DNA of 64,000 nt from contig NZ_FQVQ01000004.1 in NCBI RefSeq assembly GCF_900129405.1, positions 62,001 through 126,000 on the forward strand, in the 5' to 3' direction. Under the pieces are notes generated by a model. The model ran no database searches. It saw only the letters and a list, made by a program, of their open reading frames with translations, and was not told the DNA's origin. This DNA comes from Flavobacterium fontis. Its GTDB lineage: Bacteria; Bacteroidota; Bacteroidia; Flavobacteriales; Flavobacteriaceae. A program made the position numbers and the translations under genes. The stretch's first letter is position 1. The number at the start of each line of letters is the position of its first letter. Of this stretch, positions 11,288 to 23,333 are shown one piece after another.

Positions 11288-11315
11288 ATTTTACATAATA
11301 TAAATTATAGCGCAT
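11288..11315. repeat. Left attachment site: hybrid dif-like site (attL)
   Basis: A 28-bp dif-like site: arm ATTTTACATAA, centre TATAAA, arm TTATAGCGCAT. The left arm ends in CATAA and the right arm begins TTAT, as in the E. coli dif XerC and XerD arms recalled from memory. Compared with the right border (23306-23333), the left arm differs at three positions and the right arm after TTATAG. Its left arm is therefore chromosomal and its right arm comes from the phage, as expected after Xer recombination in the centre. Confidence 0.8.
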
Positions 11316-11353
11316 TAAATACGGTACATTTTAGCATAAAACGCACAATATCA

Positions 11354-12514
11354 ATGATAAACCAAAACTTTTTCGATATCCCATTAAATCAAGGGTTAAT
11401 AGATTCGTTAACCGTTTTTTTACCTCTTGACAAGATTACAATAATTGATAACCGCCTAACTGACGAGTATATGTGCTATTATCCCGACAACAACGATTCA
11501 GGCCTTTTAATTGAGGAACTACACCCGCCAAAACCAATAATGATAAACCACAACGGTATTAATTTCCGAATGAATAAAGTCGTCTTATCAGAACTCAAAG
11601 ATAAACGAGGTAATATACTCCGTGAACATTCCGAAGCAATTCGCCTAACCCTTACCGCAAAAATGCTACACGGTGAATATTTCCGAGGCATCAATAACGA
11701 CAATATTAGTCGCATTGTCGATTATATCAACACCACAAATATTATAAAAATAGATACCGAAACCATACTTAATTCACCCTGTAATGATATCGATATTTGT
11801 ATTAATTACAGGCTTGATTTTGATATTTTCAAGGAATCCCGAAAGTTCTTATACAACCTCGTTAAAGATTCAAAAAAGCATGCTGTGGAACTCTTCCCTG
11901 CAAAAGAAACCCAAAAAATCAATAAAAATATAGGTTTGATATATGGCGACCGTGAAAAGGGTCTTATTTCAACACCTTTTTGTAAATTCTACAACAAAGA
12001 AAACGAACTACTTACAAAATCAGCCGAGTTTTATAATATCTATCTTTTTCCTCAACTCAAATACGGCTTATCAATAAAAAACCTAATCAGAAAAGAAATT
12101 ACACTACGAAATAACGAGCAAAAAAAGAATCTTATAAAAAATGGTCAAGTAAACAAAGATAATCCCCTAAAAACGCTTAAAAACATTCTCGATATAACAC
12201 AAGACCAACTTACTGAAATATGTAACTCAACATTAAGATATTACTATGACAAAAAACAATTTTCAATCCCTGACGACCTCAAACCCCTTGAAAAGATATT
12301 GGCGGGATACATGCAACAGATTATTAACCTTGGCGGTGATAAACTTGCTCTTATTGCTCCCCTTGATAGTATATCTTGCAAGGTCACCAAGTCGAGAACA
12401 AAAGCCAAAATCGACGAACTAATCAAAATAGTTTTCTCCGACGATTACATAAAAAAACAGGCTCAAAAAAACGAATTTATGAACGACTTTTTAAAGCTTC
12501 AATCCATTTGGTAA
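11354..12514 (+). CDS. Rolling-circle-type phage replication initiator (copy 1)
   Basis: The 386-residue protein is the largest of the unit and the first after the attachment site. It resembles phage/plasmid replication initiation factors (Rep_trans/inovirus gpII-like): DSLTVFLPL near the N-terminus, FCKFYNKENEL around residue 215 (the family's Y-[DN]-K-x-x-E pattern that carries a candidate nicking tyrosine), and LIRKEITLRNN about 35 residues later (family R-x-E-[IV]-x-L-R). No Walker A motif is present, so it is not a helicase or packaging ATPase. The predicted role is nicking of the plus strand at the phage origin. In this copy the upstream DNA is chromosomal, so the phage's own 585-nt control region lies downstream rather than upstream of it. 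Confidence 0.65.
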   Translation: MINQNFFDIPLNQGLIDSLTVFLPLDKITIIDNRLTDEYMCYYPDNNDSGLLIEELHPPKPIMINHNGINFRMNKVVLSELKDKRGNILREHSEAIRLTLTAKMLHGEYFRGINNDNISRIVDYINTTNIIKIDTETILNSPCNDIDICINYRLDFDIFKESRKFLYNLVKDSKKHAVELFPAKETQKINKNIGLIYGDREKGLISTPFCKFYNKENELLTKSAEFYNIYLFPQLKYGLSIKNLIRKEITLRNNEQKKNLIKNGQVNKDNPLKTLKNILDITQDQLTEICNSTLRYYYDKKQFSIPDDLKPLEKILAGYMQQIINLGGDKLALIAPLDSISCKVTKSRTKAKIDELIKIVFSDDYIKKQAQKNEFMNDFLKLQSIW

Positions 12515-12528
12515 AAAACCCCCTTGGC

Positions 12529-12547
12529 GGGGCTATGTGATAGCCCC
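12529..12547 (+). other. Perfect GC hairpin after the replication gene (copy 1)
   Basis: GGGGCTAT (12529-12536) and ATAGCCCC (12540-12547) form an 8-bp stem with loop GTG, 15 bp after the initiator stop codon. No T-run follows, so it is not a standard terminator. It could be an RNA processing/attenuation signal or an origin element for complementary-strand synthesis. Confidence 0.55.
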
Positions 12548-12586
12548 GATAAGTTAATAAAAATGTTAACCATAAAAATTAAAATT

Positions 12587-12808
12587 ATGACAAAACAGCA
12601 ACTAAAAACACAATTAGTAAACCTTTATGTATTACAAGCTAAACTTAAGAAACTAACATCAAATGAGGCTTACGAAAACTACCATTTTATATCGGGTCAA
12701 ATAAAAGTCTTAGAAACTTTAATTAATGGGCAAAAATTCATTAATAATAACCATGTCAACGAATTTATCACTTATGAAAACGAAAGAAAAAAACGCTCTT
12801 TCTTCTAA
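12587..12808 (+). CDS. Small early phage protein of 73 aa (copy 1)
   Basis: I start it at ATG 12587 (MTKQQLKTQLVNLY); the longer in-frame start at 12524 would read through the GC hairpin and is unlikely. The product is helical and charged, with leucines and lysines spaced as in a short coiled coil (about residues 5-50) and a basic end KKRSFF. It lies between the replication gene and the HTH-like gene, overlapping the next gene. No family was recognised; a role in replication, for example ssDNA binding, is only suggested by position. Confidence 0.55.
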   Translation: MTKQQLKTQLVNLYVLQAKLKKLTSNEAYENYHFISGQIKVLETLINGQKFINNNHVNEFITYENERKKRSFF

Positions 12809-12956
12809 AGGCACACGTCCTACAATGGTACAACGTGCCGAAAATGACAAAGGATATAGCTACAAATTAAAAAACGGTGAATTTCTATATTTTCCCGATA
12901 AAAAATTTCCCGTTGACGATATCGGGAAAAATGGCCAAACAAAGTTAATATTATAA
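12774..12956 (+). CDS. Small early phage protein of 60 aa (copy 1)
   Basis: I chose ATG 12774 (MKTKEKNALSSKG); 12753 and 12726 are in-frame alternatives deeper inside the previous gene. It overlaps the previous gene by 35 bp in another frame. The product has a basic N-terminus and a short beta-like segment (YSYKLKNGEFLYFPDKKFPVDDIG). No family was recognised. The overlap and compactness are typical of very small phage genomes. Confidence 0.5.
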   Translation: MKTKEKNALSSKGTRPTMVQRAENDKGYSYKLKNGEFLYFPDKKFPVDDIGKNGQTKLIL

Positions 12957-12959
12957 AAA

Positions 12960-12979
12960 GGGCGGGTTGCACCCCGCCC
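12960..12979 (+). other. GC-rich hairpin before the HTH-like gene (copy 1)
   Basis: GGGCGGG (12960-12966) pairs with CCCGCCC (12973-12979), loop TTGCAC. It is an island of GC in AT-rich DNA, without T-run. It may be a regulatory or replication structure. Confidence 0.5.
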
Positions 12980-12997
12980 CAACAAAATCCCTACGTT

Positions 12998-13180
12998 ATG
13001 TCAAAAATTTCAGAATTTCGCATTTTATCAATTAAAGATTTTATGATATTACTTGAAGTATCAGAAACAACTGCGAAGCAATATCGAAAAGATTTAAGAG
13101 AACACTTAAGACTTGAAAAAAAGCCAATACTTTTTATTCATTTCAAGCGATATTTTAACATAAATGACGCCAAGGTATAA
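12998..13180 (+). CDS. Small helix-turn-helix-like phage protein (copy 1)
   Basis: The 60-residue basic protein contains ILSIKDFMILLEVSETTAKQY, which reads like a helix-turn-helix (first helix, turn at residues V-S, recognition helix ETTAKQYRKDL), as in small excisionase or MerR-type DNA-binding proteins. It is the last gene before the terminator at 13206 that separates early from structural genes. A role as repressor or switch for the phage is an inference from fold and position. Confidence 0.5.
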   Translation: MSKISEFRILSIKDFMILLEVSETTAKQYRKDLREHLRLEKKPILFIHFKRYFNINDAKV

Positions 13181-13205
13181 AAATAGTCTTAAATGGGTCG
13201 TAAAT

Positions 13206-13235
13206 AGTCGGGTTTAAATACTCGACTTTTTTTAT
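13206..13235 (+). terminator. Terminator between the early and structural gene blocks (copy 1)
   Basis: AGTCGGGT (13206-13213) pairs with the segment ending CTCGACT (13227), one wobble, followed by TTTTTTTATT. It ends the replication-block transcript 48 bp before the capsid gene, so the structural genes need their own promoter. CACCTTTG at 13240-13247 is a weak -7 candidate. Confidence 0.65.
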
Positions 13236-13282
13236 TTATCACCTTTGAATCATTATTAATACCAACTTTAAAAAACATCTTT

Positions 13283-14059
13283 ATGTTATTGAAACGTGTA
13301 TCGGGTACATCAAAGGACAAAATTGTAACCCAAACAGAATTAAGTAAATTGGTACTTCTCACAAACATGACCTTTAACGGTTTACAGGATGAGAAAATCC
13401 AAATTACTATTGAACGAAATGGCGGGAAATCAATTTCCGTTCATCCAAAGCCTGTAAATCTTCGCCAATATATTTTGGCATCAACTTACGGCCAAAATGC
13501 AATTTGCGCATTCCCTACGGCGCATTACTCAGGACACAATATGTCCGTAGTTCTTGACTTGACCGTAGCGGGTAACGTTGAACTTGTCGACTCAGACAAA
13601 ATCGTCGTAGAATTATCAAACTTGAATGAAGACCCAGACATTTACTACGAATTTCGTGGGATTCAGTCCGAAGATGGAAATGGCGACGATTCAGATATTT
13701 ACATCTTCGAGCCAAAAGTAATTCCCGATTACGAAGAAAATTTCAACCTCAATGTTGACAAATACGACGTATGCGTTATCCCTGACCTTAATACAATTCG
13801 CGAAATCAATTTCACCCATGCGTTAACTCGTCAGGTAACTAAGCGCGACCCAATTTGTCTACGTGCCGAGCATATCGATTTTGACCCTGTCGGAATCGTT
13901 TACCAAAACGGTAACGTTCGCACAAGCGACCCCAATTTTTTACAATTGGATACAGACGAGTTAATTAATATTAACGTGGTCAAGGAATTGACAGCGGGTC
14001 AAAACATCGATGTTTTGTTTCGTAAATCAGTTTCACAGGCACAATTAGGACTAAAATAG
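13283..14059 (+). CDS. Probable major capsid protein, beta-rich 258 aa (copy 1)
   Basis: No close family was recognised. The protein is almost entirely predicted beta strand with alternating hydrophobic residues, no signal peptide, no membrane helix, and an acidic middle loop (EDGNGDDSD, about residues 133-141). It heads the structural block and is followed by membrane-protein genes and a lysozyme, the place of the capsid gene in small tailless phages. Its length is close to that of the PM2 double-jelly-roll capsid protein P2 (269 aa), so one or two jelly rolls would fit. The assignment is inference from composition and gene order; another beta-rich virion protein such as a spike is possible. 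Confidence 0.5.
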   Translation: MLLKRVSGTSKDKIVTQTELSKLVLLTNMTFNGLQDEKIQITIERNGGKSISVHPKPVNLRQYILASTYGQNAICAFPTAHYSGHNMSVVLDLTVAGNVELVDSDKIVVELSNLNEDPDIYYEFRGIQSEDGNGDDSDIYIFEPKVIPDYEENFNLNVDKYDVCVIPDLNTIREINFTHALTRQVTKRDPICLRAEHIDFDPVGIVYQNGNVRTSDPNFLQLDTDELININVVKELTAGQNIDVLFRKSVSQAQLGLK

Positions 14060-14065
14060 TAACCT

Positions 14066-14614
14066 ATGGGATTTTTTAAAAGAATCGGTAAGGGAATCGG
14101 AAAAGGTATCAAAGGTGCGGGTAAATTCATCAAGAAAAACGCCACATTTAAGAACCTTGTATCTCTTGCCTCAAATTTTGACCCCTCGGGCATTGTTGGC
14201 GGTTTACAGGCCAAACACGAAGCAAAAAAGCAAGAACAGCAAGCATTGGCCGAAATGCAACAAAATCCTGAGTTTAACCAATTACCCGCTACTGAACAGG
14301 TAATGTTAGTAAAAAACCACGTTGGCGCACAAAACGCCCAAGCAATTGCCACGGCTTCAGATATTGCACAAAAACGAGGTATCACAATTGGCGAAGTTTT
14401 ACAAGGTGCTGCGGGTGGTGCTTTACAGGGTGCAGGCTCTGTAATGGCGGGCGATACAAAAGTAGCTACCACGGGCGGAACCCTTACACAAAATGTGTTT
14501 ATGAATTGGCTTAAACGCTTTTGGTATATCCCTCTCGGCATTGTTGTAATTCTTGCCCTCGTATGGCGTAAACTCGCAAACCCTCAAAGCGGACGAACCT
14601 ACCGCAGACGATAA
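14066..14614 (+). CDS. Glycine-zipper membrane-active virion protein, 182 aa (copy 1)
   Basis: The N-terminus (MGFFKRIGKGIGKGIKGAGKF) repeats G-x-x-x-G with lysines, an amphipathic cationic membrane-active helix like pore-forming peptides. The middle (about 45-130) is Ala/Gln-rich and helical. A C-terminal membrane helix (WYIPLGIVVILALVW, about 157-171) ends in RTYRRR. It starts 6 bp after the capsid candidate. Such a layout suits a DNA-injection or penetration protein embedded in a virion membrane, or an internal scaffold. No named family was recognised. Confidence 0.5.
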   Translation: MGFFKRIGKGIGKGIKGAGKFIKKNATFKNLVSLASNFDPSGIVGGLQAKHEAKKQEQQALAEMQQNPEFNQLPATEQVMLVKNHVGAQNAQAIATASDIAQKRGITIGEVLQGAAGGALQGAGSVMAGDTKVATTGGTLTQNVFMNWLKRFWYIPLGIVVILALVWRKLANPQSGRTYRRR

Positions 14615-14620
14615 AAATAC

Positions 14621-14779
14621 ATGAAAACAACCCTTTTAACAGGTGGCCTTGGCATCGGGATGATGCAAGCCATACAGCAAGTTGACCCGGCACAAACGGT
14701 CAACCTCTTAAGTACTATCGTTGTTGCGGTCGTTACTTTAATTCGATTGTTTAAAAAAGACAAACCAAAAAACCAATAA
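14621..14779 (+). CDS. Small membrane protein of 52 aa, holin-like (copy 1)
   Basis: Below the usual size cut-off. The reading frame MKTTLLTGGLGIGMMQA...KPKNQ has one hydrophobic helix (about 27-45, STIVVAVVTLIRLF) and a lysine-rich end. It starts 6 bp after the previous stop and ends 3 bp before the next start, which supports it as a real gene. A holin or a virion membrane protein would fit beside the downstream lysozyme. Confidence 0.5.
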   Translation: MKTTLLTGGLGIGMMQAIQQVDPAQTVNLLSTIVVAVVTLIRLFKKDKPKNQ

Positions 14780-14782
14780 ATC

Positions 14783-14998
14783 ATGCAAAGAAATAAACGC
14801 ATCAGTACAGACCGTTTCGGTAACCCTTATCAAGTTATTGGCTTGAAAGATACAAAAGGCACAGGCTTCCCAAAAGGTTACGTTGAGTTAGGCGGAAAAC
14901 TTTACAAATTAGAGCATTCACCCTCACAAAAAGAAGGTGTTGAAGCTTGGATTCGTGTTACAAAAGTTGACCAAAAACAACGTCAAACCTCAATGTAA
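14783..14998 (+). CDS. Small beta-rich phage protein of 71 aa (copy 1)
   Basis: The basic, glycine-containing product (MQRNKRISTDRFGNPYQVIG...) has no membrane segment and looks like a small beta barrel or OB/SH3-like fold, which is a guess from composition. Its stop codon overlaps the next start (TAATG). Possible minor virion protein; no family recognised. Confidence 0.5.
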   Translation: MQRNKRISTDRFGNPYQVIGLKDTKGTGFPKGYVELGGKLYKLEHSPSQKEGVEAWIRVTKVDQKQRQTSM

Positions 14999-15168
14999 TG
15001 AAGTCAATCATTAATTTCCTATCTGCGTGCCGTGATTATATCGATTATGGCTACGCTTTACTCGACTCGCTTAACTATACCGTTAAGCGTTTCGAGGAAG
15101 TAGGCAAAAAACAAAAAACCGATGTTAACGACAAAGGAAATAGCCCTGAATCTAATAATCCCGCATGA
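14998..15168 (+). CDS. Small phage protein of 56 aa overlapping the lysozyme gene (copy 1)
   Basis: The frame starts in the TAATG overlap with the previous stop and runs MKSIINFLSACRDYIDYGYALL...NNPA. Its last 47 bp overlap the lysozyme gene in another frame. The first half is helical with aromatic residues, the end is polar. Start/stop coupling on one side and the lysozyme on the other support translation, though no homologue was recognised. Confidence 0.42.
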   Translation: MKSIINFLSACRDYIDYGYALLDSLNYTVKRFEEVGKKQKTDVNDKGNSPESNNPA

Positions 15169-15673
15169 AGGGTTATATAGTGCCTCCCCTACCGGGTTGG
15201 TACGAGTAAAGGACAAAAAAACACCTATTTATCCCTATCGTGATCCCTCGGGAGTATGGACAATTGGTTTTGGGACTACAATTTACCCCGACGGTAAACC
15301 CGTCCGTAAAACAGACCCGCCAATTACATACGAAAAGGCTGTCGAATTTATGCTTTTGCACATCGACAACGACCTTAAGAATCTTAAAAAGTATCTTCCA
15401 CAACGTTTAACACGTTATCAGGTTGCATCCTTGTTAAGTCTTTCTTATAACATTGGTTGGCCAAGATTAGCCCGTACAAAGGCAACTAAAGGTCTACTAC
15501 ATGTAATTAACGAAAACCCCGACGATTTTAACCGAATTGAACCATTATTCAAACAATATCAATTTGCTAACGGTCGTCGCCTCTCAGGACTAATTAAACG
15601 TCGAAACGACGAATTCAAAACTTATAAAAAAAAAGTATCTTCATCATGTTTGACAAAATCAAAAATTTCGTAA
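15122..15673 (+). CDS. Phage lysozyme, glycoside hydrolase family 24 (copy 1)
   Basis: The 183-residue protein cleaves the glycan backbone of peptidoglycan. The catalytic triad of T4-type lysozymes is visible: Glu16 in IPHEGLY, Asp41 and Thr47 in the motif YRDPSGVWTIGFG. Between Glu16 and Asp41 there is an insertion of about 15 residues compared with T4 lysozyme. Conserved helices follow (YQVASLLSLSYNIG). No signal peptide is present, so export would need a holin or delivery as part of the virion. A dedicated lysozyme argues for release by lysis, or entry by local wall digestion, and against filamentous extrusion. Confidence 0.88.
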   Translation: MLTTKEIALNLIIPHEGLYSASPTGLVRVKDKKTPIYPYRDPSGVWTIGFGTTIYPDGKPVRKTDPPITYEKAVEFMLLHIDNDLKNLKKYLPQRLTRYQVASLLSLSYNIGWPRLARTKATKGLLHVINENPDDFNRIEPLFKQYQFANGRRLSGLIKRRNDEFKTYKKKVSSSCLTKSKIS

Positions 15674-15762
15674 CTGAAAAGCCCGCAATTGCTGTTGCTA
15701 TCGCTGTGGGTCTTGTAGTTGTAATTTGGAAAGTAGTTTTACCTATGTTCCGTAAAAAATAA
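15646..15762 (+). CDS. Tiny membrane protein of 38 aa (copy 1)
   Basis: Too short for ordinary gene calling. It overlaps the lysozyme 3' end by 28 bp and consists of a short amphipathic start (MFDKIKNFVTEKP), one membrane helix (AIAVAIAVGLVVVIWKVVL) and a cationic end (FRKK). This resembles the small virion membrane proteins of PM2- and PRD1-type phages, or a holin. Confidence 0.5.
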   Translation: MFDKIKNFVTEKPAIAVAIAVGLVVVIWKVVLPMFRKK

Positions 15763-15768
15763 TCTACT

Positions 15769-16389
15769 ATGCGCAGAACTTCACCTACTTCAAAATTTGC
15801 GCTATTTTTCAAGGCCAATTGGGTTCAACTCCTTTTGGCTTTACTTTTTTTCCTCTTTGTTTTCCCATGGATTTACAGAAAAGCACAAGACGCAATTTCA
15901 TCATTTAAGCAAAACAAACAGGATAACGCTACCGACGAATTGAAAAATCAAATCGATAACGCAATAAAAGTAAATAGCGCTGAAAATTCAACTGCAAACC
16001 CTGTTACACGTACACAAAAACAAACCGCAGTAGCTAAAAAATACAAGTCTAAACGACTTTCAAAAGCCAAAATGCGCGAACTCGCAAATATTTCAGAAAA
16101 CATCGCAATAGCTTTTGGAACTAATGCCGAGGAAAACGGCTCACTTTTAGGCGTTGATTTTTTCGGAGACGTACCGAAAACTTTTTCAGCAATGACCGAG
16201 GACGAGAAAGAAGCTATTAAGCAATTGAAAAAAGTACCTGGCACATTCGGCATTGTCGCCGACTATTACTACAACGTCTACACTCGTAGCCGTAATCTTA
16301 AGACCGATATTAAACGGTTTCTTACTACTTCACAAATTCAAGAACTCCGAGACCATTATAAAAAATATGGAATCCGTAACGTAATCTAA
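15769..16389 (+). CDS. Membrane-anchored phage protein of 206 aa (copy 1)
   Basis: An N-terminal membrane helix (about 18-36, WVQLLLALLFFLFVFPWIY) is followed by a polar, Asn/Gln/Lys-rich linker (about 40-105) and a helical soluble domain (about 105-206). It starts 6 bp after the 38-aa gene and ends 1 bp before the last gene. It has no recognisable ATPase or peptidase motif. A virion membrane protein linking membrane and capsid is a reasonable guess only. Confidence 0.5.
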   Translation: MRRTSPTSKFALFFKANWVQLLLALLFFLFVFPWIYRKAQDAISSFKQNKQDNATDELKNQIDNAIKVNSAENSTANPVTRTQKQTAVAKKYKSKRLSKAKMRELANISENIAIAFGTNAEENGSLLGVDFFGDVPKTFSAMTEDEKEAIKQLKKVPGTFGIVADYYYNVYTRSRNLKTDIKRFLTTSQIQELRDHYKKYGIRNVI

Positions 16390-16390
16390 T

Positions 16391-16777
16391 ATGCAAAGTC
16401 TACACGCTTATTTATCCGATTATAATCTTGCAATTTACGCACAAAACAATAACTTAAGACCAAAACAATTAGTCCTTTTGTACGTAAATGAACACGGATT
16501 ATTAAAACAAACCCCCGTTATCTCAGCACCTAAACCAAATGGCGAAAACATGATGGGCGTAATTTTTGACGAAGAAGCTTTTTGTTTAGGTGTTTATGTA
16601 AATGGTGTACAAGTCAATGCAACCGAATTGCGTAGTCAATTCACTCCAAAGGAGTTATATTTTATGAATTTAAATTCAAAAACTCCCGTTCCTTTACCTT
16701 TTGCACCTGAACTGCTTACTGAACAGGATTTTAGGCCACGAGGCTCCGTGCTTCTTATGCCTTACATTATGCCTTAA
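16391..16777 (+). CDS. Phage protein of 128 aa, last gene of the unit (copy 1)
   Basis: Soluble product without membrane helix, mixed alpha/beta composition, ending in a hydrophobic proline-containing stretch (GSVLLMPYIMP). It follows the 206-aa gene by one base, so both are likely translated together. No family recognised; receptor-binding or vertex protein is possible by position at the end of a structural block. Confidence 0.42.
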   Translation: MQSLHAYLSDYNLAIYAQNNNLRPKQLVLLYVNEHGLLKQTPVISAPKPNGENMMGVIFDEEAFCLGVYVNGVQVNATELRSQFTPKELYFMNLNSKTPVPLPFAPELLTEQDFRPRGSVLLMPYIMP

Positions 16778-16798
16778 GAGAATTTTTTTATCCTTTTA

Positions 16799-16828
16799 TT
16801 TGCCTAATTAAAAATTTCTTTATATTTG
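16799..16828 (+). promoter_or_regulatory. Strong Bacteroidota promoter after the last phage gene (copy 1)
   Basis: TTTG (16799-16802) and TATATTTG (16821-16828) match the -33 and -7 consensus (TTTG, TAnnTTTG) with an 18-bp spacer. This is the best-matching promoter of the unit, and it faces a non-coding region. Confidence 0.7.
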
Positions 16829-16834
16829 GGCATC

Positions 16835-16930
16835 ATTTAGCGATGATAAACGGTAAAAATTTATGAATAAAGGACAAAAAATTTTCTTCATATTCCTGTA
16901 CTCTATTTCGGGTACAGGATTTTTCTTTTT
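16835..16930 (+). ncRNA. Candidate ~90-nt transcript with terminator, enclosing a 26-aa reading frame (copy 1)
   Basis: The promoter at 16799-16828 predicts a start near 16835. A terminator follows: CCTGTAC (16895-16901) with GTACAGG (16912-16918), then ATTTTTCTTTTT. The predicted RNA of roughly 90 nt could be a phage regulatory RNA or primer RNA for the replication origin. Alternatively it is the leader of a 26-aa hydrophobic reading frame (16863-16943, MNKGQKIFFIFLYS...) that runs through the hairpin. Both the RNA and the peptide are predictions. Confidence 0.45.
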
Positions 16931-16949
16931 ATCACTTCGCTAAAAGCCT

Positions 16950-17295
16950 CCACCGTTAAAAAAACCGACTAAGGTTTTTAGGTGGTACGTGACAGGCAAA
17001 ACAAAAAAATCGCCGAAGGCAACCTTTTAAAAATTAAAAATTGCCCTTTTTAATTTTTAACCGCAAAAGAGCCCGGTAGGCGATTGCAATTTCAAAAAAT
17101 TCCGTAGGATCAATTTTTTGAAATAAAAAACTCCGAGTCAAACGGTGTTAACGCACCTCCCCGGAGTTTGTAAACGGTAATAATGTACAAACCTAAACAA
17201 ATATTGTGCATTATTCCCACAAAATGAATGTTAATTAATTGCTAATACGTTCCATTATTTAAAGCTATCCTTTAAAAACCCCTGTAAATACAGGG
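16950..17295. other. Non-coding hairpin cluster: probable phage replication origin/packaging region (copy 1)
   Basis: The gene-free stretch 16778-17362 holds, besides the promoter and terminator, six inverted repeats: CCACC/GGTGG around AAAAACC/GGTTTTT (16950-16985); ATCGCC/GGCGAT (17009-17084) enclosing a perfect 14-bp AT stem (17027-17040 with 17047-17060); a perfect 12-bp stem TTTCAAAAAATT (17090-17101 with 17112-17123); AACTCCG/CGGAGTT with inner GGTG/CACC (17129-17168); GTTTGTA/TACAAAC (17166-17192); CCCTGT/ACAGGG (17280-17295). Such clusters carry plus- and minus-strand origins and the packaging signal in ssDNA phages. Which hairpin is nicked is not known. Confidence 0.6.
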
Positions 17296-17296
17296 T

Positions 17297-17324
17297 TCTT
17301 TACATACTATAAATTATAGCGCAT
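17297..17324. repeat. Internal attachment site between the two prophage units (attP-like)
   Basis: Arms TCTTTACATAC and TTATAGCGCAT around centre TATAAA. Both arms are phage-type, since the left arm equals that of the right border and the right arm equals that of the left border. This is the site expected on the circular phage genome. Confidence 0.8.
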
Positions 17325-17362
17325 TAAATACGGTACATTTTAGCATAAAACGCACAATATCA

Positions 17363-18523
17363 ATGATAAACCAAAACTTTTTCGATATCCCATTAAATCA
17401 AGGGTTAATAGATTCGTTAACCGTTTTTTTACCTCTTGACAAGATTACAATAATTGATAACCGCCTAACTGACGAGTATATGTGCTATTATCCCGACAAC
17501 AACGATTCAGGCCTTTTAATTGAGGAACTACACCCGCCAAAACCAATAATGATAAACCACAACGGTATTAATTTCCGAATGAATAAAGTCGTCTTATCAG
17601 AACTCAAAGATAAACGAGGTAATATACTCCGTGAACATTCCGAAGCAATTCGCCTAACCCTTACCGCAAAAATGCTACACGGTGAATATTTCCGAGGCAT
17701 CAATAACGACAATATTAGTCGCATTGTCGATTATATCAACACCACAAATATTATAAAAATAGATACCGAAACCATACTTAATTCACCCTGTAATGATATC
17801 GATATTTGTATTAATTACAGGCTTGATTTTGATATTTTCAAGGAATCCCGAAAGTTCTTATACAACCTCGTTAAAGATTCAAAAAAGCATGCTGTGGAAC
17901 TCTTCCCTGCAAAAGAAACCCAAAAAATCAATAAAAATATAGGTTTGATATATGGCGACCGTGAAAAGGGTCTTATTTCAACACCTTTTTGTAAATTCTA
18001 CAACAAAGAAAACGAACTACTTACAAAATCAGCCGAGTTTTATAATATCTATCTTTTTCCTCAACTCAAATACGGCTTATCAATAAAAAACCTAATCAGA
18101 AAAGAAATTACACTACGAAATAACGAGCAAAAAAAGAATCTTATAAAAAATGGTCAAGTAAACAAAGATAATCCCCTAAAAACGCTTAAAAACATTCTCG
18201 ATATAACACAAGACCAACTTACTGAAATATGTAACTCAACATTAAGATATTACTATGACAAAAAACAATTTTCAATCCCTGACGACCTCAAACCCCTTGA
18301 AAAGATATTGGCGGGATACATGCAACAGATTATTAACCTTGGCGGTGATAAACTTGCTCTTATTGCTCCCCTTGATAGTATATCTTGCAAGGTCACCAAG
18401 TCGAGAACAAAAGCCAAAATCGACGAACTAATCAAAATAGTTTTCTCCGACGATTACATAAAAAAACAGGCTCAAAAAAACGAATTTATGAACGACTTTT
18501 TAAAGCTTCAATCCATTTGGTAA
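17363..18523 (+). CDS. Rolling-circle-type phage replication initiator (copy 2)
   Basis: Protein identical to the product of 11354-12514, including the FYNKENEL and IRKEITLR motifs. Here the upstream sequence is phage DNA with the promoter/hairpin region of unit 1, so this copy is the one most likely expressed as on the free phage genome. Acting at the origin of each unit, it could excise one 6-kb circle by replication from origin to origin without any recombinase. Confidence 0.65.
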   Translation: MINQNFFDIPLNQGLIDSLTVFLPLDKITIIDNRLTDEYMCYYPDNNDSGLLIEELHPPKPIMINHNGINFRMNKVVLSELKDKRGNILREHSEAIRLTLTAKMLHGEYFRGINNDNISRIVDYINTTNIIKIDTETILNSPCNDIDICINYRLDFDIFKESRKFLYNLVKDSKKHAVELFPAKETQKINKNIGLIYGDREKGLISTPFCKFYNKENELLTKSAEFYNIYLFPQLKYGLSIKNLIRKEITLRNNEQKKNLIKNGQVNKDNPLKTLKNILDITQDQLTEICNSTLRYYYDKKQFSIPDDLKPLEKILAGYMQQIINLGGDKLALIAPLDSISCKVTKSRTKAKIDELIKIVFSDDYIKKQAQKNEFMNDFLKLQSIW

Positions 18524-18537
18524 AAAACCCCCTTGGC

Positions 18538-18556
18538 GGGGCTATGTGATAGCCCC
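18538..18556 (+). other. Perfect GC hairpin after the replication gene (copy 2)
   Basis: Same 8-bp stem and GTG loop as at 12529-12547. Confidence 0.55.
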
Positions 18557-18595
18557 GATAAGTTAATAAAAATGTTAACCATAAAAATTAAAATT

Positions 18596-18817
18596 ATGAC
18601 AAAACAGCAACTAAAAACACAATTAGTAAACCTTTATGTATTACAAGCTAAACTTAAGAAACTAACATCAAATGAGGCTTACGAAAACTACCATTTTATA
18701 TCGGGTCAAATAAAAGTCTTAGAAACTTTAATTAATGGGCAAAAATTCATTAATAATAACCATGTCAACGAATTTATCACTTATGAAAACGAAAGAAAAA
18801 AACGCTCTTTCTTCTAA
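18596..18817 (+). CDS. Small early phage protein of 73 aa (copy 2)
   Basis: Identical to 12587-12808; start chosen at MTKQQLK for the same reason. Function unknown. Confidence 0.55.
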   Translation: MTKQQLKTQLVNLYVLQAKLKKLTSNEAYENYHFISGQIKVLETLINGQKFINNNHVNEFITYENERKKRSFF

Positions 18818-18965
18818 AGGCACACGTCCTACAATGGTACAACGTGCCGAAAATGACAAAGGATATAGCTACAAATTAAAAAACGGTGAATTTCTATATT
18901 TTCCCGATAAAAAATTTCCCGTTGACGATATCGGGAAAAATGGCCAAACAAAGTTAATATTATAA
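18783..18965 (+). CDS. Small early phage protein of 60 aa (copy 2)
   Basis: Identical to 12774-12956, overlapping the previous gene by 35 bp. Function unknown. Confidence 0.5.
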   Translation: MKTKEKNALSSKGTRPTMVQRAENDKGYSYKLKNGEFLYFPDKKFPVDDIGKNGQTKLIL

Positions 18966-18968
18966 AAA

Positions 18969-18988
18969 GGGCGGGTTGCACCCCGCCC
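18969..18988 (+). other. GC-rich hairpin before the HTH-like gene (copy 2)
   Basis: GGGCGGG/CCCGCCC stem, as at 12960-12979. Confidence 0.5.
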
Positions 18989-19006
18989 CAACAAAATCCC
19001 TACGTT

Positions 19007-19189
19007 ATGTCAAAAATTTCAGAATTTCGCATTTTATCAATTAAAGATTTTATGATATTACTTGAAGTATCAGAAACAACTGCGAAGCAATATCGAAAAG
19101 ATTTAAGAGAACACTTAAGACTTGAAAAAAAGCCAATACTTTTTATTCATTTCAAGCGATATTTTAACATAAATGACGCCAAGGTATAA
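19007..19189 (+). CDS. Small helix-turn-helix-like phage protein (copy 2)
   Basis: Identical to 12998-13180. If it is the repressor, the tandem doubles its gene dose, which would help keep both units silent. Confidence 0.5.
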   Translation: MSKISEFRILSIKDFMILLEVSETTAKQYRKDLREHLRLEKKPILFIHFKRYFNINDAKV

Positions 19190-19214
19190 AAATAGTCTTA
19201 AATGGGTCGTAAAT

Positions 19215-19244
19215 AGTCGGGTTTAAATACTCGACTTTTTTTAT
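19215..19244 (+). terminator. Terminator between early and structural blocks (copy 2)
   Basis: Same stem and T-run as at 13206-13235. Confidence 0.65.
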
Positions 19245-19291
19245 TTATCACCTTTGAATCATTATTAATACCAACTTTAAAAAACATCTTT

Positions 19292-20068
19292 ATGTTATTG
19301 AAACGTGTATCGGGTACATCAAAGGACAAAATTGTAACCCAAACAGAATTAAGTAAATTGGTACTTCTCACAAACATGACCTTTAACGGTTTACAGGATG
19401 AGAAAATCCAAATTACTATTGAACGAAATGGCGGGAAATCAATTTCCGTTCATCCAAAGCCTGTAAATCTTCGCCAATATATTTTGGCATCAACTTACGG
19501 CCAAAATGCAATTTGCGCATTCCCTACGGCGCATTACTCAGGACACAATATGTCCGTAGTTCTTGACTTGACCGTAGCGGGTAACGTTGAACTTGTCGAC
19601 TCAGACAAAATCGTCGTAGAATTATCAAACTTGAATGAAGACCCAGACATTTACTACGAATTTCGTGGGATTCAGTCCGAAGATGGAAATGGCGACGATT
19701 CAGATATTTACATCTTCGAGCCAAAAGTAATTCCCGATTACGAAGAAAATTTCAACCTCAATGTTGACAAATACGACGTATGCGTTATCCCTGACCTTAA
19801 TACAATTCGCGAAATCAATTTCACCCATGCGTTAACTCGTCAGGTAACTAAGCGCGACCCAATTTGTCTACGTGCCGAGCATATCGATTTTGACCCTGTC
19901 GGAATCGTTTACCAAAACGGTAACGTTCGCACAAGCGACCCCAATTTTTTACAATTGGATACAGACGAGTTAATTAATATTAACGTGGTCAAGGAATTGA
20001 CAGCGGGTCAAAACATCGATGTTTTGTTTCGTAAATCAGTTTCACAGGCACAATTAGGACTAAAATAG
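19292..20068 (+). CDS. Probable major capsid protein, beta-rich 258 aa (copy 2)
   Basis: Identical to 13283-14059; see there for the reasoning behind the capsid assignment. Confidence 0.5.
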   Translation: MLLKRVSGTSKDKIVTQTELSKLVLLTNMTFNGLQDEKIQITIERNGGKSISVHPKPVNLRQYILASTYGQNAICAFPTAHYSGHNMSVVLDLTVAGNVELVDSDKIVVELSNLNEDPDIYYEFRGIQSEDGNGDDSDIYIFEPKVIPDYEENFNLNVDKYDVCVIPDLNTIREINFTHALTRQVTKRDPICLRAEHIDFDPVGIVYQNGNVRTSDPNFLQLDTDELININVVKELTAGQNIDVLFRKSVSQAQLGLK

Positions 20069-20074
20069 TAACCT

Positions 20075-20623
20075 ATGGGATTTTTTAAAAGAATCGGTAA
20101 GGGAATCGGAAAAGGTATCAAAGGTGCGGGTAAATTCATCAAGAAAAACGCCACATTTAAGAACCTTGTATCTCTTGCCTCAAATTTTGACCCCTCGGGC
20201 ATTGTTGGCGGTTTACAGGCCAAACACGAAGCAAAAAAGCAAGAACAGCAAGCATTGGCCGAAATGCAACAAAATCCTGAGTTTAACCAATTACCCGCTA
20301 CTGAACAGGTAATGTTAGTAAAAAACCACGTTGGCGCACAAAACGCCCAAGCAATTGCCACGGCTTCAGATATTGCACAAAAACGAGGTATCACAATTGG
20401 CGAAGTTTTACAAGGTGCTGCGGGTGGTGCTTTACAGGGTGCAGGCTCTGTAATGGCGGGCGATACAAAAGTAGCTACCACGGGCGGAACCCTTACACAA
20501 AATGTGTTTATGAATTGGCTTAAACGCTTTTGGTATATCCCTCTCGGCATTGTTGTAATTCTTGCCCTCGTATGGCGTAAACTCGCAAACCCTCAAAGCG
20601 GACGAACCTACCGCAGACGATAA
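20075..20623 (+). CDS. Glycine-zipper membrane-active virion protein, 182 aa (copy 2)
   Basis: Identical to 14066-14614, with cationic glycine-zipper N-terminus and C-terminal membrane helix. Confidence 0.5.
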   Translation: MGFFKRIGKGIGKGIKGAGKFIKKNATFKNLVSLASNFDPSGIVGGLQAKHEAKKQEQQALAEMQQNPEFNQLPATEQVMLVKNHVGAQNAQAIATASDIAQKRGITIGEVLQGAAGGALQGAGSVMAGDTKVATTGGTLTQNVFMNWLKRFWYIPLGIVVILALVWRKLANPQSGRTYRRR

Positions 20624-20629
20624 AAATAC

Positions 20630-20788
20630 ATGAAAACAACCCTTTTAACAGGTGGCCTTGGCATCGGGATGATGCAAGCCATACAGCAAGTTGACCCGGC
20701 ACAAACGGTCAACCTCTTAAGTACTATCGTTGTTGCGGTCGTTACTTTAATTCGATTGTTTAAAAAAGACAAACCAAAAAACCAATAA
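20630..20788 (+). CDS. Small membrane protein of 52 aa, holin-like (copy 2)
   Basis: Identical to 14621-14779; one membrane helix and a lysine-rich end. Confidence 0.5.
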   Translation: MKTTLLTGGLGIGMMQAIQQVDPAQTVNLLSTIVVAVVTLIRLFKKDKPKNQ

Positions 20789-20791
20789 ATC

Positions 20792-21007
20792 ATGCAAAGA
20801 AATAAACGCATCAGTACAGACCGTTTCGGTAACCCTTATCAAGTTATTGGCTTGAAAGATACAAAAGGCACAGGCTTCCCAAAAGGTTACGTTGAGTTAG
20901 GCGGAAAACTTTACAAATTAGAGCATTCACCCTCACAAAAAGAAGGTGTTGAAGCTTGGATTCGTGTTACAAAAGTTGACCAAAAACAACGTCAAACCTC
21001 AATGTAA
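20792..21007 (+). CDS. Small beta-rich phage protein of 71 aa (copy 2)
   Basis: Identical to 14783-14998; stop/start overlap TAATG with the next gene. Confidence 0.5.
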   Translation: MQRNKRISTDRFGNPYQVIGLKDTKGTGFPKGYVELGGKLYKLEHSPSQKEGVEAWIRVTKVDQKQRQTSM

Positions 21008-21177
21008 TGAAGTCAATCATTAATTTCCTATCTGCGTGCCGTGATTATATCGATTATGGCTACGCTTTACTCGACTCGCTTAACTATACCGTTAAGCGTT
21101 TCGAGGAAGTAGGCAAAAAACAAAAAACCGATGTTAACGACAAAGGAAATAGCCCTGAATCTAATAATCCCGCATGA
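21007..21177 (+). CDS. Small phage protein of 56 aa overlapping the lysozyme gene (copy 2)
   Basis: Identical to 14998-15168, with the same 47-bp overlap into the lysozyme gene. Confidence 0.42.
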   Translation: MKSIINFLSACRDYIDYGYALLDSLNYTVKRFEEVGKKQKTDVNDKGNSPESNNPA

Positions 21178-21682
21178 AGGGTTATATAGTGCCTCCCCTA
21201 CCGGGTTGGTACGAGTAAAGGACAAAAAAACACCTATTTATCCCTATCGTGATCCCTCGGGAGTATGGACAATTGGTTTTGGGACTACAATTTACCCCGA
21301 CGGTAAACCCGTCCGTAAAACAGACCCGCCAATTACATACGAAAAGGCTGTCGAATTTATGCTTTTGCACATCGACAACGACCTTAAGAATCTTAAAAAG
21401 TATCTTCCACAACGTTTAACACGTTATCAGGTTGCATCCTTGTTAAGTCTTTCTTATAACATTGGTTGGCCAAGATTAGCCCGTACAAAGGCAACTAAAG
21501 GTCTACTACATGTAATTAACGAAAACCCCGACGATTTTAACCGAATTGAACCATTATTCAAACAATATCAATTTGCTAACGGTCGTCGCCTCTCAGGACT
21601 AATTAAACGTCGAAACGACGAATTCAAAACTTATAAAAAAAAAGTATCTTCATCATGTTTGACAAAATCAAAAATTTCGTAA
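21131..21682 (+). CDS. Phage lysozyme, glycoside hydrolase family 24 (copy 2)
   Basis: Identical to 15122-15673, with Glu16, Asp41 and Thr47 intact, so both copies should be active. Confidence 0.88.
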   Translation: MLTTKEIALNLIIPHEGLYSASPTGLVRVKDKKTPIYPYRDPSGVWTIGFGTTIYPDGKPVRKTDPPITYEKAVEFMLLHIDNDLKNLKKYLPQRLTRYQVASLLSLSYNIGWPRLARTKATKGLLHVINENPDDFNRIEPLFKQYQFANGRRLSGLIKRRNDEFKTYKKKVSSSCLTKSKIS

Positions 21683-21771
21683 CTGAAAAGCCCGCAATTG
21701 CTGTTGCTATCGCTGTGGGTCTTGTAGTTGTAATTTGGAAAGTAGTTTTACCTATGTTCCGTAAAAAATAA
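21655..21771 (+). CDS. Tiny membrane protein of 38 aa (copy 2)
   Basis: Identical to 15646-15762; one membrane helix. Confidence 0.5.
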   Translation: MFDKIKNFVTEKPAIAVAIAVGLVVVIWKVVLPMFRKK

Positions 21772-21777
21772 TCTACT

Positions 21778-22398
21778 ATGCGCAGAACTTCACCTACTTC
21801 AAAATTTGCGCTATTTTTCAAGGCCAATTGGGTTCAACTCCTTTTGGCTTTACTTTTTTTCCTCTTTGTTTTCCCATGGATTTACAGAAAAGCACAAGAC
21901 GCAATTTCATCATTTAAGCAAAACAAACAGGATAACGCTACCGACGAATTGAAAAATCAAATCGATAACGCAATAAAAGTAAATAGCGCTGAAAATTCAA
22001 CTGCAAACCCTGTTACACGTACACAAAAACAAACCGCAGTAGCTAAAAAATACAAGTCTAAACGACTTTCAAAAGCCAAAATGCGCGAACTCGCAAATAT
22101 TTCAGAAAACATCGCAATAGCTTTTGGAACTAATGCCGAGGAAAACGGCTCACTTTTAGGCGTTGATTTTTTCGGAGACGTACCGAAAACTTTTTCAGCA
22201 ATGACCGAGGACGAGAAAGAAGCTATTAAGCAATTGAAAAAAGTACCTGGCACATTCGGCATTGTCGCCGACTATTACTACAACGTCTACACTCGTAGCC
22301 GTAATCTTAAGACCGATATTAAACGGTTTCTTACTACTTCACAAATTCAAGAACTCCGAGACCATTATAAAAAATATGGAATCCGTAACGTAATCTAA
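21778..22398 (+). CDS. Membrane-anchored phage protein of 206 aa (copy 2)
   Basis: Identical to 15769-16389; N-terminal membrane helix, polar linker, helical domain. Confidence 0.5.
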   Translation: MRRTSPTSKFALFFKANWVQLLLALLFFLFVFPWIYRKAQDAISSFKQNKQDNATDELKNQIDNAIKVNSAENSTANPVTRTQKQTAVAKKYKSKRLSKAKMRELANISENIAIAFGTNAEENGSLLGVDFFGDVPKTFSAMTEDEKEAIKQLKKVPGTFGIVADYYYNVYTRSRNLKTDIKRFLTTSQIQELRDHYKKYGIRNVI

Positions 22399-22399
22399 T

Positions 22400-22786
22400 A
22401 TGCAAAGTCTACACGCTTATTTATCCGATTATAATCTTGCAATTTACGCACAAAACAATAACTTAAGACCAAAACAATTAGTCCTTTTGTACGTAAATGA
22501 ACACGGATTATTAAAACAAACCCCCGTTATCTCAGCACCTAAACCAAATGGCGAAAACATGATGGGCGTAATTTTTGACGAAGAAGCTTTTTGTTTAGGT
22601 GTTTATGTAAATGGTGTACAAGTCAATGCAACCGAATTGCGTAGTCAATTCACTCCAAAGGAGTTATATTTTATGAATTTAAATTCAAAAACTCCCGTTC
22701 CTTTACCTTTTGCACCTGAACTGCTTACTGAACAGGATTTTAGGCCACGAGGCTCCGTGCTTCTTATGCCTTACATTATGCCTTAA
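22400..22786 (+). CDS. Phage protein of 128 aa, last gene of the unit (copy 2)
   Basis: Identical to 16391-16777. Function unknown. Confidence 0.42.
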   Translation: MQSLHAYLSDYNLAIYAQNNNLRPKQLVLLYVNEHGLLKQTPVISAPKPNGENMMGVIFDEEAFCLGVYVNGVQVNATELRSQFTPKELYFMNLNSKTPVPLPFAPELLTEQDFRPRGSVLLMPYIMP

Positions 22787-22807
22787 GAGAATTTTTTTAT
22801 CCTTTTA

Positions 22808-22837
22808 TTTGCCTAATTAAAAATTTCTTTATATTTG
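22808..22837 (+). promoter_or_regulatory. Strong Bacteroidota promoter after the last phage gene (copy 2)
   Basis: TTTG, 18-bp spacer and TATATTTG as at 16799-16828. Confidence 0.7.
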
Positions 22838-22843
22838 GGCATC

Positions 22844-22939
22844 ATTTAGCGATGATAAACGGTAAAAATTTATGAATAAAGGACAAAAAATTTTCTTCAT
22901 ATTCCTGTACTCTATTTCGGGTACAGGATTTTTCTTTTT
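22844..22939 (+). ncRNA. Candidate ~90-nt transcript with terminator (copy 2)
   Basis: Same promoter-to-terminator unit as at 16835-16930, including the 26-aa frame (22872-22952). Confidence 0.45.
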
Positions 22940-22958
22940 ATCACTTCGCTAAAAGCCT

Positions 22959-23304
22959 CCACCGTTAAAAAAACCGACTAAGGTTTTTAGGTGGTACGTG
23001 ACAGGCAAAACAAAAAAATCGCCGAAGGCAACCTTTTAAAAATTAAAAATTGCCCTTTTTAATTTTTAACCGCAAAAGAGCCCGGTAGGCGATTGCAATT
23101 TCAAAAAATTCCGTAGGATCAATTTTTTGAAATAAAAAACTCCGAGTCAAACGGTGTTAGCGCACCTCCCCGGAGTTTGTAAACGGTAATAATGTACAAA
23201 CCTAAACAAATATTGTGCATTATTCCCACAAAATGAATGTTAATTAATTGCTAATACGTTCCATTATTTAAAGCTATCCTTTAAAAACCCCTGTAAATAC
23301 AGGG
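22959..23304. other. Non-coding hairpin cluster: probable origin/packaging region (copy 2)
   Basis: Same six inverted repeats as at 16950-17295. The only base difference seen between the two units lies here: G23160 in place of A17151, in the loop between GGTG and CACC. Its position in an unpaired loop leaves the stem intact. Confidence 0.6.
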
Positions 23305-23305
23305 T

Positions 23306-23333
23306 TCTTTACATACTATAAATTATAGTTTAT
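23306..23333. repeat. Right attachment site: hybrid dif-like site (attR)
   Basis: Arms TCTTTACATAC (phage-type) and TTATAGTTTAT (chromosomal) around TATAAA. Joining the chromosomal left arm (11288-11298) to this right arm gives the unoccupied chromosomal site: ATTTTACATAA, TATAAA, TTATAGTTTAT. It matches the E. coli dif layout with CATAA before and TTAT after a 6-bp centre. Confidence 0.8.

Follow-up and report, generated by a model that had tools for sequence, protein, structure and literature searches.

Organisation of the locus

The window analysed here, a stretch of 64,000 nucleotides forming part of a 244-kb contig of Flavobacterium fontis (genome of 3.08 Mb, 36 contigs), contains two direct repeats of 6009 bp, which are best explained as a tandem prophage of a small phage lying at the chromosomal dif site (Table 1). 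The repeats had been described in an earlier reading of the sequence alone, together with a rightward gene set in each of them, a GH24 lysozyme and a hairpin-rich non-coding region, and all these features have been borne out. The two copies differ at a single base (A at 17151, G at 23160), their main open reading frames (ORFs) run rightward and are open in both, and, owing to the repetition of the attachment core, the identity extends past copy 2 as far as 23328. The lysozyme belongs to PF00959/GH24 (expectation value, E, 2e-18). The non-coding segment 16778-17300, folded as DNA, reaches -84.9 kcal/mol vs -49.2 +/- 4.3 kcal/mol in 100 shuffles (z -8.3); at a guess, it could be an origin or a packaging signal, and Rfam gave no match at the gathering score between 9000 and 25500. 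The absence of integrase, tail and packaging ATPase genes, also claimed earlier, agrees with the scans of Pfam (11 proteins), PHROGs and NCBIfam (10 of the 11), where none was recognised; a tape-measure PHROG match of the 206-amino-acid (206-aa) protein (E 0.057) was taken as chance.

Table 1. Features of the element and its surroundings (window positions; att, attachment site; HTH, helix-turn-helix)
Feature	Copy 1	Copy 2	Strand
Prophage copy 1, 6009 bp	11299-17307		+
Prophage copy 2, 6009 bp, one base changed		17308-23316	+
attL: host left arm + phage right arm of dif, TTTACATAA-TATAAA-TTATAG	11290-11310		+
Junction att, phage attP form, TTTACATAC-TATAAA-TTATAG	17299-17319		+
attR: phage left arm + host right arm		23308-23328	+
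Putative replication initiator, 386 aa, divergent	11354-12514	17363-18523	+
60-aa protein, weakly HTH-like (PF08220, E 0.082), counterpart of phiCjT23 gp4 and phi12:2 gp3	12998-13180	19007-19189	+
Major capsid protein, double jelly roll, 258 aa	13283-14059	19292-20068	+
182-aa protein, hydrophobic stretch, counterpart of phiCjT23 gp6, phi12:2 gp5 and the FLiP gene adjoining the capsid gene	14066-14614	20075-20623	+
52-aa protein, one hydrophobic stretch, one relative (L014)	14621-14779	20630-20788	+
71-aa protein, one relative (L020)	14783-14998	20792-21007	+
56-aa ORF, lone weak match in L021 (E 0.0071), dropped by profile search	14998-15168	21007-21177	+
GH24 lysozyme, endolysin	15122-15673	21131-21682	+
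206-aa protein, N-terminal hydrophobic stretch, counterpart of phiCjT23 gp12 and phi12:2 gp9	15769-16389	21778-22398	+
128-aa vertex protein, apparently the penton-domain part of phiCjT23 spike P13	16391-16777	22400-22786	+
Non-coding hairpin-rich region before att	16778-17298	22787-23307	+
DUF294/CBS/cNMP-binding gene, left neighbour of attL	9251-11164

The capsid protein and its relatives

The 258-aa protein, previously proposed as a capsid candidate to be checked by structure prediction, is of the double-jelly-roll type. It is related to the major capsid protein (MCP) of the Flavobacterium phage phiCjT23 (tblastn E 1e-11, 26% identity, 82% covered), whose solved structure, that of capsid protein P5 (PDB 7zzz), was matched by phmmer with E 1.3e-15, and it also matches a PHROG of virion structural proteins (E 1.5e-5). 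An AlphaFold model built from 20 sequences of the window and related loci (predicted local distance difference test, pLDDT, 80.8; predicted template modelling score, pTM, 0.84) showed a capsid fold, for which Foldseek returned 7zzz_A first (E 8.7e-22, template modelling scores 0.83/0.90), followed by the capsid proteins of PR772 and PRD1, with PM2 P2 at rank 26. The identity of the capsid protein is 32% with locus L014, 27% with phiCjT23, 23% with phi12:2 and 21% with FLiP, the last giving no tblastn match at E 0.1. In the capsid tree no branch is starred, 14 of 20 inner branches are open and the branches are long; consequently, no placement inside the group is claimed, and the tree does not settle the grouping of phiCjT23 versus FLiP.

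The closest isolate is phiCjT23 (ON067806), described as a temperate, lipid-containing 7.6-kb phage with single-stranded DNA (ssDNA), together with 57 putative Flavobacterium prophages of 6021-8407 bp that have a dif site at either end (Kejzar et al. 2022, PMC9719478). The element of the window shares with it the genus of the host, the capsid type, the gene order (replication protein, Rep; 60-aa protein; MCP; gp6; further genes; gp12; vertex protein), in which the putative replication gene is closely followed by the phiCjT23-homologous MCP gene, and dif-like sites at both ends, with a C beside the central hexamer of the phage site. They differ in length (7642 bp in phiCjT23 vs 6009 bp here), in the Rep, not recognisably related between the two, in the GH24 lysozyme, for which no counterpart was detected in phiCjT23, in the vertex protein (283 aa vs 128 aa) and in the tandem state. 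Among 37 loci (phiCjT23, FLiP, phi12:2 and 34 prophage loci), iterated profile searches in a small ORF set (E 1e-3) found counterparts of the 60-aa, capsid and 206-aa proteins in 36 each, and of the 182-aa protein in all 37, FLiP included.

Thus, the sequence-only reading, according to which the combination of traits was not described, does not hold, since temperate lipid-containing ssDNA phages with dif-flanked prophages of 6.0-8.4 kb were published in 2022 (PMC9719478) and the 6.5-kb relatives of the family Obscuriviridae were also known (PMC11946311, PMC8776804, PMC12451628). Its comparison with FLiP stands as a distant kinship and fails as to the closest relative: FLiP was discarded as nearest kin, phiCjT23 being closer by capsid and having the dif habit. 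Instead of a new kind of phage, the locus offers a very small, divergent double-jelly-roll ssDNA prophage, apparently spike-less and in tandem lysogeny. Particular to it are the tandem pair, the smallest unit of the set (the distances between sites were 6470-8280 bp in 32 prophage loci, and 6009 bp is slightly below the minimum of 6021 bp given in PMC9719478), the divergent Rep, the GH24 lysozyme and a 128-aa vertex protein that seems to consist of the penton part alone. As to the tandem state, the titles and abstracts listed in the literature searches contain no report of it for such a prophage, and the main text of PMC9719478 nowhere uses the word "tandem".

Homologous units occur in other genomes, as the earlier reading had required. 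Searches with the single capsid sequence, whose counts are lower bounds, found it in 8 of 150 genomes of the genus (7 besides its own) and in 2 of 397 of the family (1 besides its own), while an 18-row capsid profile matched 3 of 299 family genomes and 4 of 395 class genomes, own included in both. The named loci from the contig scan (n=29) comprise 28 from Flavobacterium and one from a "Flavobacteriaceae bacterium". Further, L093 and L094, from two further families of the class, contain capsid relatives flanked by different dif-like repeats (TTTACATTATGTTA and TTACTTAACATAATGTTAATT, respectively), that of L093 being present in three copies.

Attachment at dif

The use of dif, also proposed earlier, is supported by a 21-base dif-like core that bounds both copies at three places (Table 1). 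The 17-base heart of this core is found at these three places only in the window (mean of 0.00 in 100 window shuffles), and in the whole genome the core at up to 2 mismatches occurs at the three sites of the element and nowhere else. With up to 1 mismatch allowed, 113 of the 150 Flavobacterium genomes searched, this one among them, contain the 21-mer (three copies in this genome, two in one, one in 111; the control was zero among the rows listed). Moreover, the left neighbour gene of attL adjoins dif in all 10 phage-free dif loci compared and in 33 of the 37 with a prophage, the guanine-cytosine skew changes at the element from mostly positive to mostly negative, with scatter, and the genome has one XerD match above the cut-off (335 bits), with four more, the next at 234 bits. 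The attachment site is, therefore, the chromosomal dif. The DUF294/CBS/cNMP-binding gene on the left is a conserved dif neighbour in Flavobacterium, whether a prophage is present or absent. The right flank had no match in any of these loci, phage-free (10) or with a prophage (37), and only partial or short ones in other genomes among 100 relatives; neither was a clean empty site found in a near relative.

Two sites on the same strand were present in 32 of the 37 prophage loci, or 30 of 35 once duplicate contigs (L016/L036 and L019/L050) are removed. In a scan requiring the central hexamer TATAAA and allowing up to 2 mismatches elsewhere, all 32 showed the same arm polarity, with A before the hexamer at one end and C (29 loci) or T (3 loci) at the other. 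Which arm belongs to XerC and which to XerD we take by analogy with E. coli dif. In L045 the prophage is inverted relative to its dif sites by comparison with the other loci that came from its scan.

From these sites and from the phiCjT23 precedent, it can be held with high confidence that integration probably depends on the host enzymes XerC and XerD. A circular double-stranded replicative form would be recombined into the chromosomal dif, the phage att being a copy of dif save for C instead of A beside the central hexamer on one arm; as a result, integration leaves the host arm intact at the left (attL) and puts the phage arm at the right (attR). If a second circle then went in at attL, the observed order attL-copy-junction-copy-attR would result, this order of arrival being the presumed one. 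From such a repeat whole circles could arise again through recombination, through Xer or through replication driven by Rep that runs from one copy to the next. In the virions, a membrane vesicle would be covered by the double-jelly-roll capsid protein and a small penton protein would occupy the vertices; the GH24 lysozyme would serve to open the cell.

Weighing the interpretation

Taken together, the repeat structure, the att sites, the identity of dif, the homology and predicted fold of the capsid protein and the gene order common with phiCjT23 lead us to regard the element, with a probability of about 0.92, as two prophage copies in tandem at the dif of a Flavobacterium, derived from a small ssDNA phage that is temperate, lacks a tail and belongs with phiCjT23. 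The ssDNA genome, the internal membrane and the temperate cycle are suggested by homology, phiCjT23 itself being known to have circular ssDNA and an internal lipid membrane.

Several points weigh against it. Particles, circles, ssDNA and lipid are attributed to the element indirectly. The 386-aa protein, a putative replication initiator by its position and weak motifs, gave no useful match in Pfam, PHROG or NCBIfam, its profile comparison with the phiCjT23-type Rep was not significant (P 0.059 and 0.13), and that with the FLiP Rep gave a weak similarity (P 0.00055). The 21-mer at up to 1 mismatch was missing from 37 of the 150 genus genomes, including a prophage-bearing one (G133) whose site is more divergent, and a pair of same-strand sites is lacking in 5 of the 37 prophage loci (one site each in L021, L032, L037 and L047; two on opposite strands in L049). 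Three pattern scans of IMG/VR, two with the capsid protein and one with the Rep, found no relative, which may reflect the method. Finally, the tandem is known from this genome alone and could be an effect of the assembly, though one base differs.

As regards this last point, the element might be a single prophage, the second copy being an assembly artefact due to abundant circular replicative forms in the culture that was sequenced. The tandem state does rest on the assembler, given an assembly in 36 contigs; moreover, a second capsid ORF was found in none of the 37 loci compared, and the capsid searches of genus, family and class genomes gave no other genome with two matches, although draft assemblies can hide tandem copies. 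The base that differs between the copies speaks against an artefact, as does the presence of both outer junctions and the inner one within one 244-kb contig, with the arms that tandem integration predicts, so that this explanation is considered unlikely.

The vertex protein and an apparently missing spike

In the 283-residue spike P13 of phiCjT23, the penton barrel is made up of residues 1-91 (PMC9719478). The 128-aa protein of the window sits in the P13 position and appears to correspond to the penton domain alone, the external part being absent. A profile built from vertex-position proteins truncated at residue 115 (39 rows, with phi12:2 twice) matched it with E 5.1e-7 in a set of 326 sequences, against 0.056 for the best of 200 shuffles, and with E 8e-6 when the two other short proteins were left out; hhalign gave 76%. 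The structural evidence does not support the penton reading: the model is poor (pLDDT 60), a fold search with it gave receptor domains at the top (E of at least 0.055), with 7zzz_P at rank 49 (E 0.93), and a PDB search with three short vertex proteins returned nothing. Similarly short proteins occur in L014 (104 aa) and L020 (113 aa, followed by a separate ORF of 150 aa); the remaining 34 of 36 have at least 186 aa. On this sequence evidence, the vertex of this phage apparently carries no outer spike.

A vertex protein that seems to stop after its penton domain would also fit a defective or domesticated remnant that has lost particle production, as would the outcome that none of the element's proteins was recognised as a candidate for receptor binding. 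This is improbable, to much the same degree as an artefact, since both copies keep their main ORFs open, L014 and L020 are likewise short-vertex loci, and near-identical tandem copies suggest recent activity.

Other affiliations

FLiP (Finnlakeviridae) has in common with the element the double-jelly-roll fold, a small circular ssDNA genome and a lytic enzyme. Membership in that family, which the shared fold, the weak Rep similarity and a distant counterpart of the FLiP gene that adjoins that of the capsid (E 3.5e-7, from a search of a small set) might favour, is very improbable: the capsid protein is closer to L014 and phiCjT23, as the identities above indicate, and FLiP has a 9174-bp genome with a Phage_CRI Rep and a lytic transglycosylase, in which allowing up to 3 mismatches revealed no dif-like site, and a separate canonical penton protein (PMC9719478). 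The lack of a dif-like site agrees with the statement that FLiP does not integrate (PMC13269007). Least probable of all is a non-viral plasmid, satellite or other Xer-exploiting element, which would suit the small size, the use of dif and the Rep-like gene and is contradicted by capsid, vertex and lysozyme genes in phage order.

CTXphi-type phages are filamentous and form tandem arrays. They resemble the element, as interpreted here, in using XerC/XerD at dif (cited in PMC9719478) and differ from it in that no sequence kinship was seen between them and it encodes an icosahedral-type capsid protein; no filamentous phage protein (Inoviridae/CTXphi) was matched in the Pfam, PHROG and NCBIfam scans.

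A dif-like site in Obscuriviridae

The Cellulophaga phages phi12:2, phi12a:1, phi18:4, phi48:1 and Omtje (Obscuriviridae, to which phi18:4 and Omtje, of 6.5 kb, are assigned in PMC11946311, PMC8776804 and PMC12451628) are likewise non-tailed ssDNA phages of about 6.5 kb, and phi12:2 gp3, gp4, gp5 and gp9 have counterparts in the window. They differ in their capsid protein (23% identity for phi12:2), in their Rep_trans-type Rep and in being plaque-forming isolates for which the cited accounts report no integration. Moreover, of the family core given in PMC8776804, a replication initiation factor and a glucosaminidase, the window has a Rep with no PF02486 match and a GH24 lysozyme in place of the second. 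In the taxonomy of the phage collection, these phages (L012, L055-L058) are still placed under Microviridae.

The 17-base att core was found in all five genomes examined, without mismatch in phi12:2, phi18:4 and phi48:1 and with one mismatch in phi12a:1 and Omtje (one match in 1 of 200 shuffles for phi18:4 and in 0 of 200 for Omtje). It is placed in the non-coding gap corresponding to that of the window, behind the gene in the vertex position (5141-5161 in L012, near 5172 in L056-L058, near 1127 in L055). No report of such a site was found in the titles and abstracts listed in the literature searches, and the word "dif" is absent from the main text of PMC11946311, where phi18:4 is described as having no identifiable lysogeny genes, yet producing plaques with a turbid, temperate-like surrounding. 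The site suggests that Obscuriviridae may be able to integrate; if so, the turbid rim of the phi18:4 plaque would be lysogeny. The survey shows the use of dif across the group and predicts lysogeny of Obscuriviridae through the host XerC/XerD. Joining this with the vertex evidence, the window element, L014 and L020 may form a spike-less branch of the phiCjT23 group, with the penton small barrel alone at the vertex (L020 possibly with a separate spike gene), within a wider group, Obscuriviridae included, that is temperate through a captured dif. We consider the chances of this joint view about even; if true, the branch would be an intermediate fitting the published spike-swapping scenario.

Replication, lysis and small proteins

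Among 41 loci searched, the 386-aa protein was common to L020, L021 and L078 only, and the phiCjT23/phi12:2-type Rep was present in 33; the PF02486 cut-off is reached by the Rep of phi12:2, that of phiCjT23 remaining below. The 386-aa protein had no useful PDB match, and tblastn of the phage collection gave no match with it or with the 206-aa protein. The membrane character of the small proteins, and the hydrophobic stretches of Table 1, were judged by eye, without a predictor. The lysis gene appears to have been exchanged within the group, because a homologue of the lysozyme was detected in L051 only, among the loci compared, and the annotated lytic enzymes of phi12:2 and FLiP are different ones. 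The distant counterpart of the 182-aa protein in FLiP (L011, 3992-4363) is the structural protein gene that adjoins the capsid gene, and might connect FLiP with the phiCjT23 group by more than the capsid.

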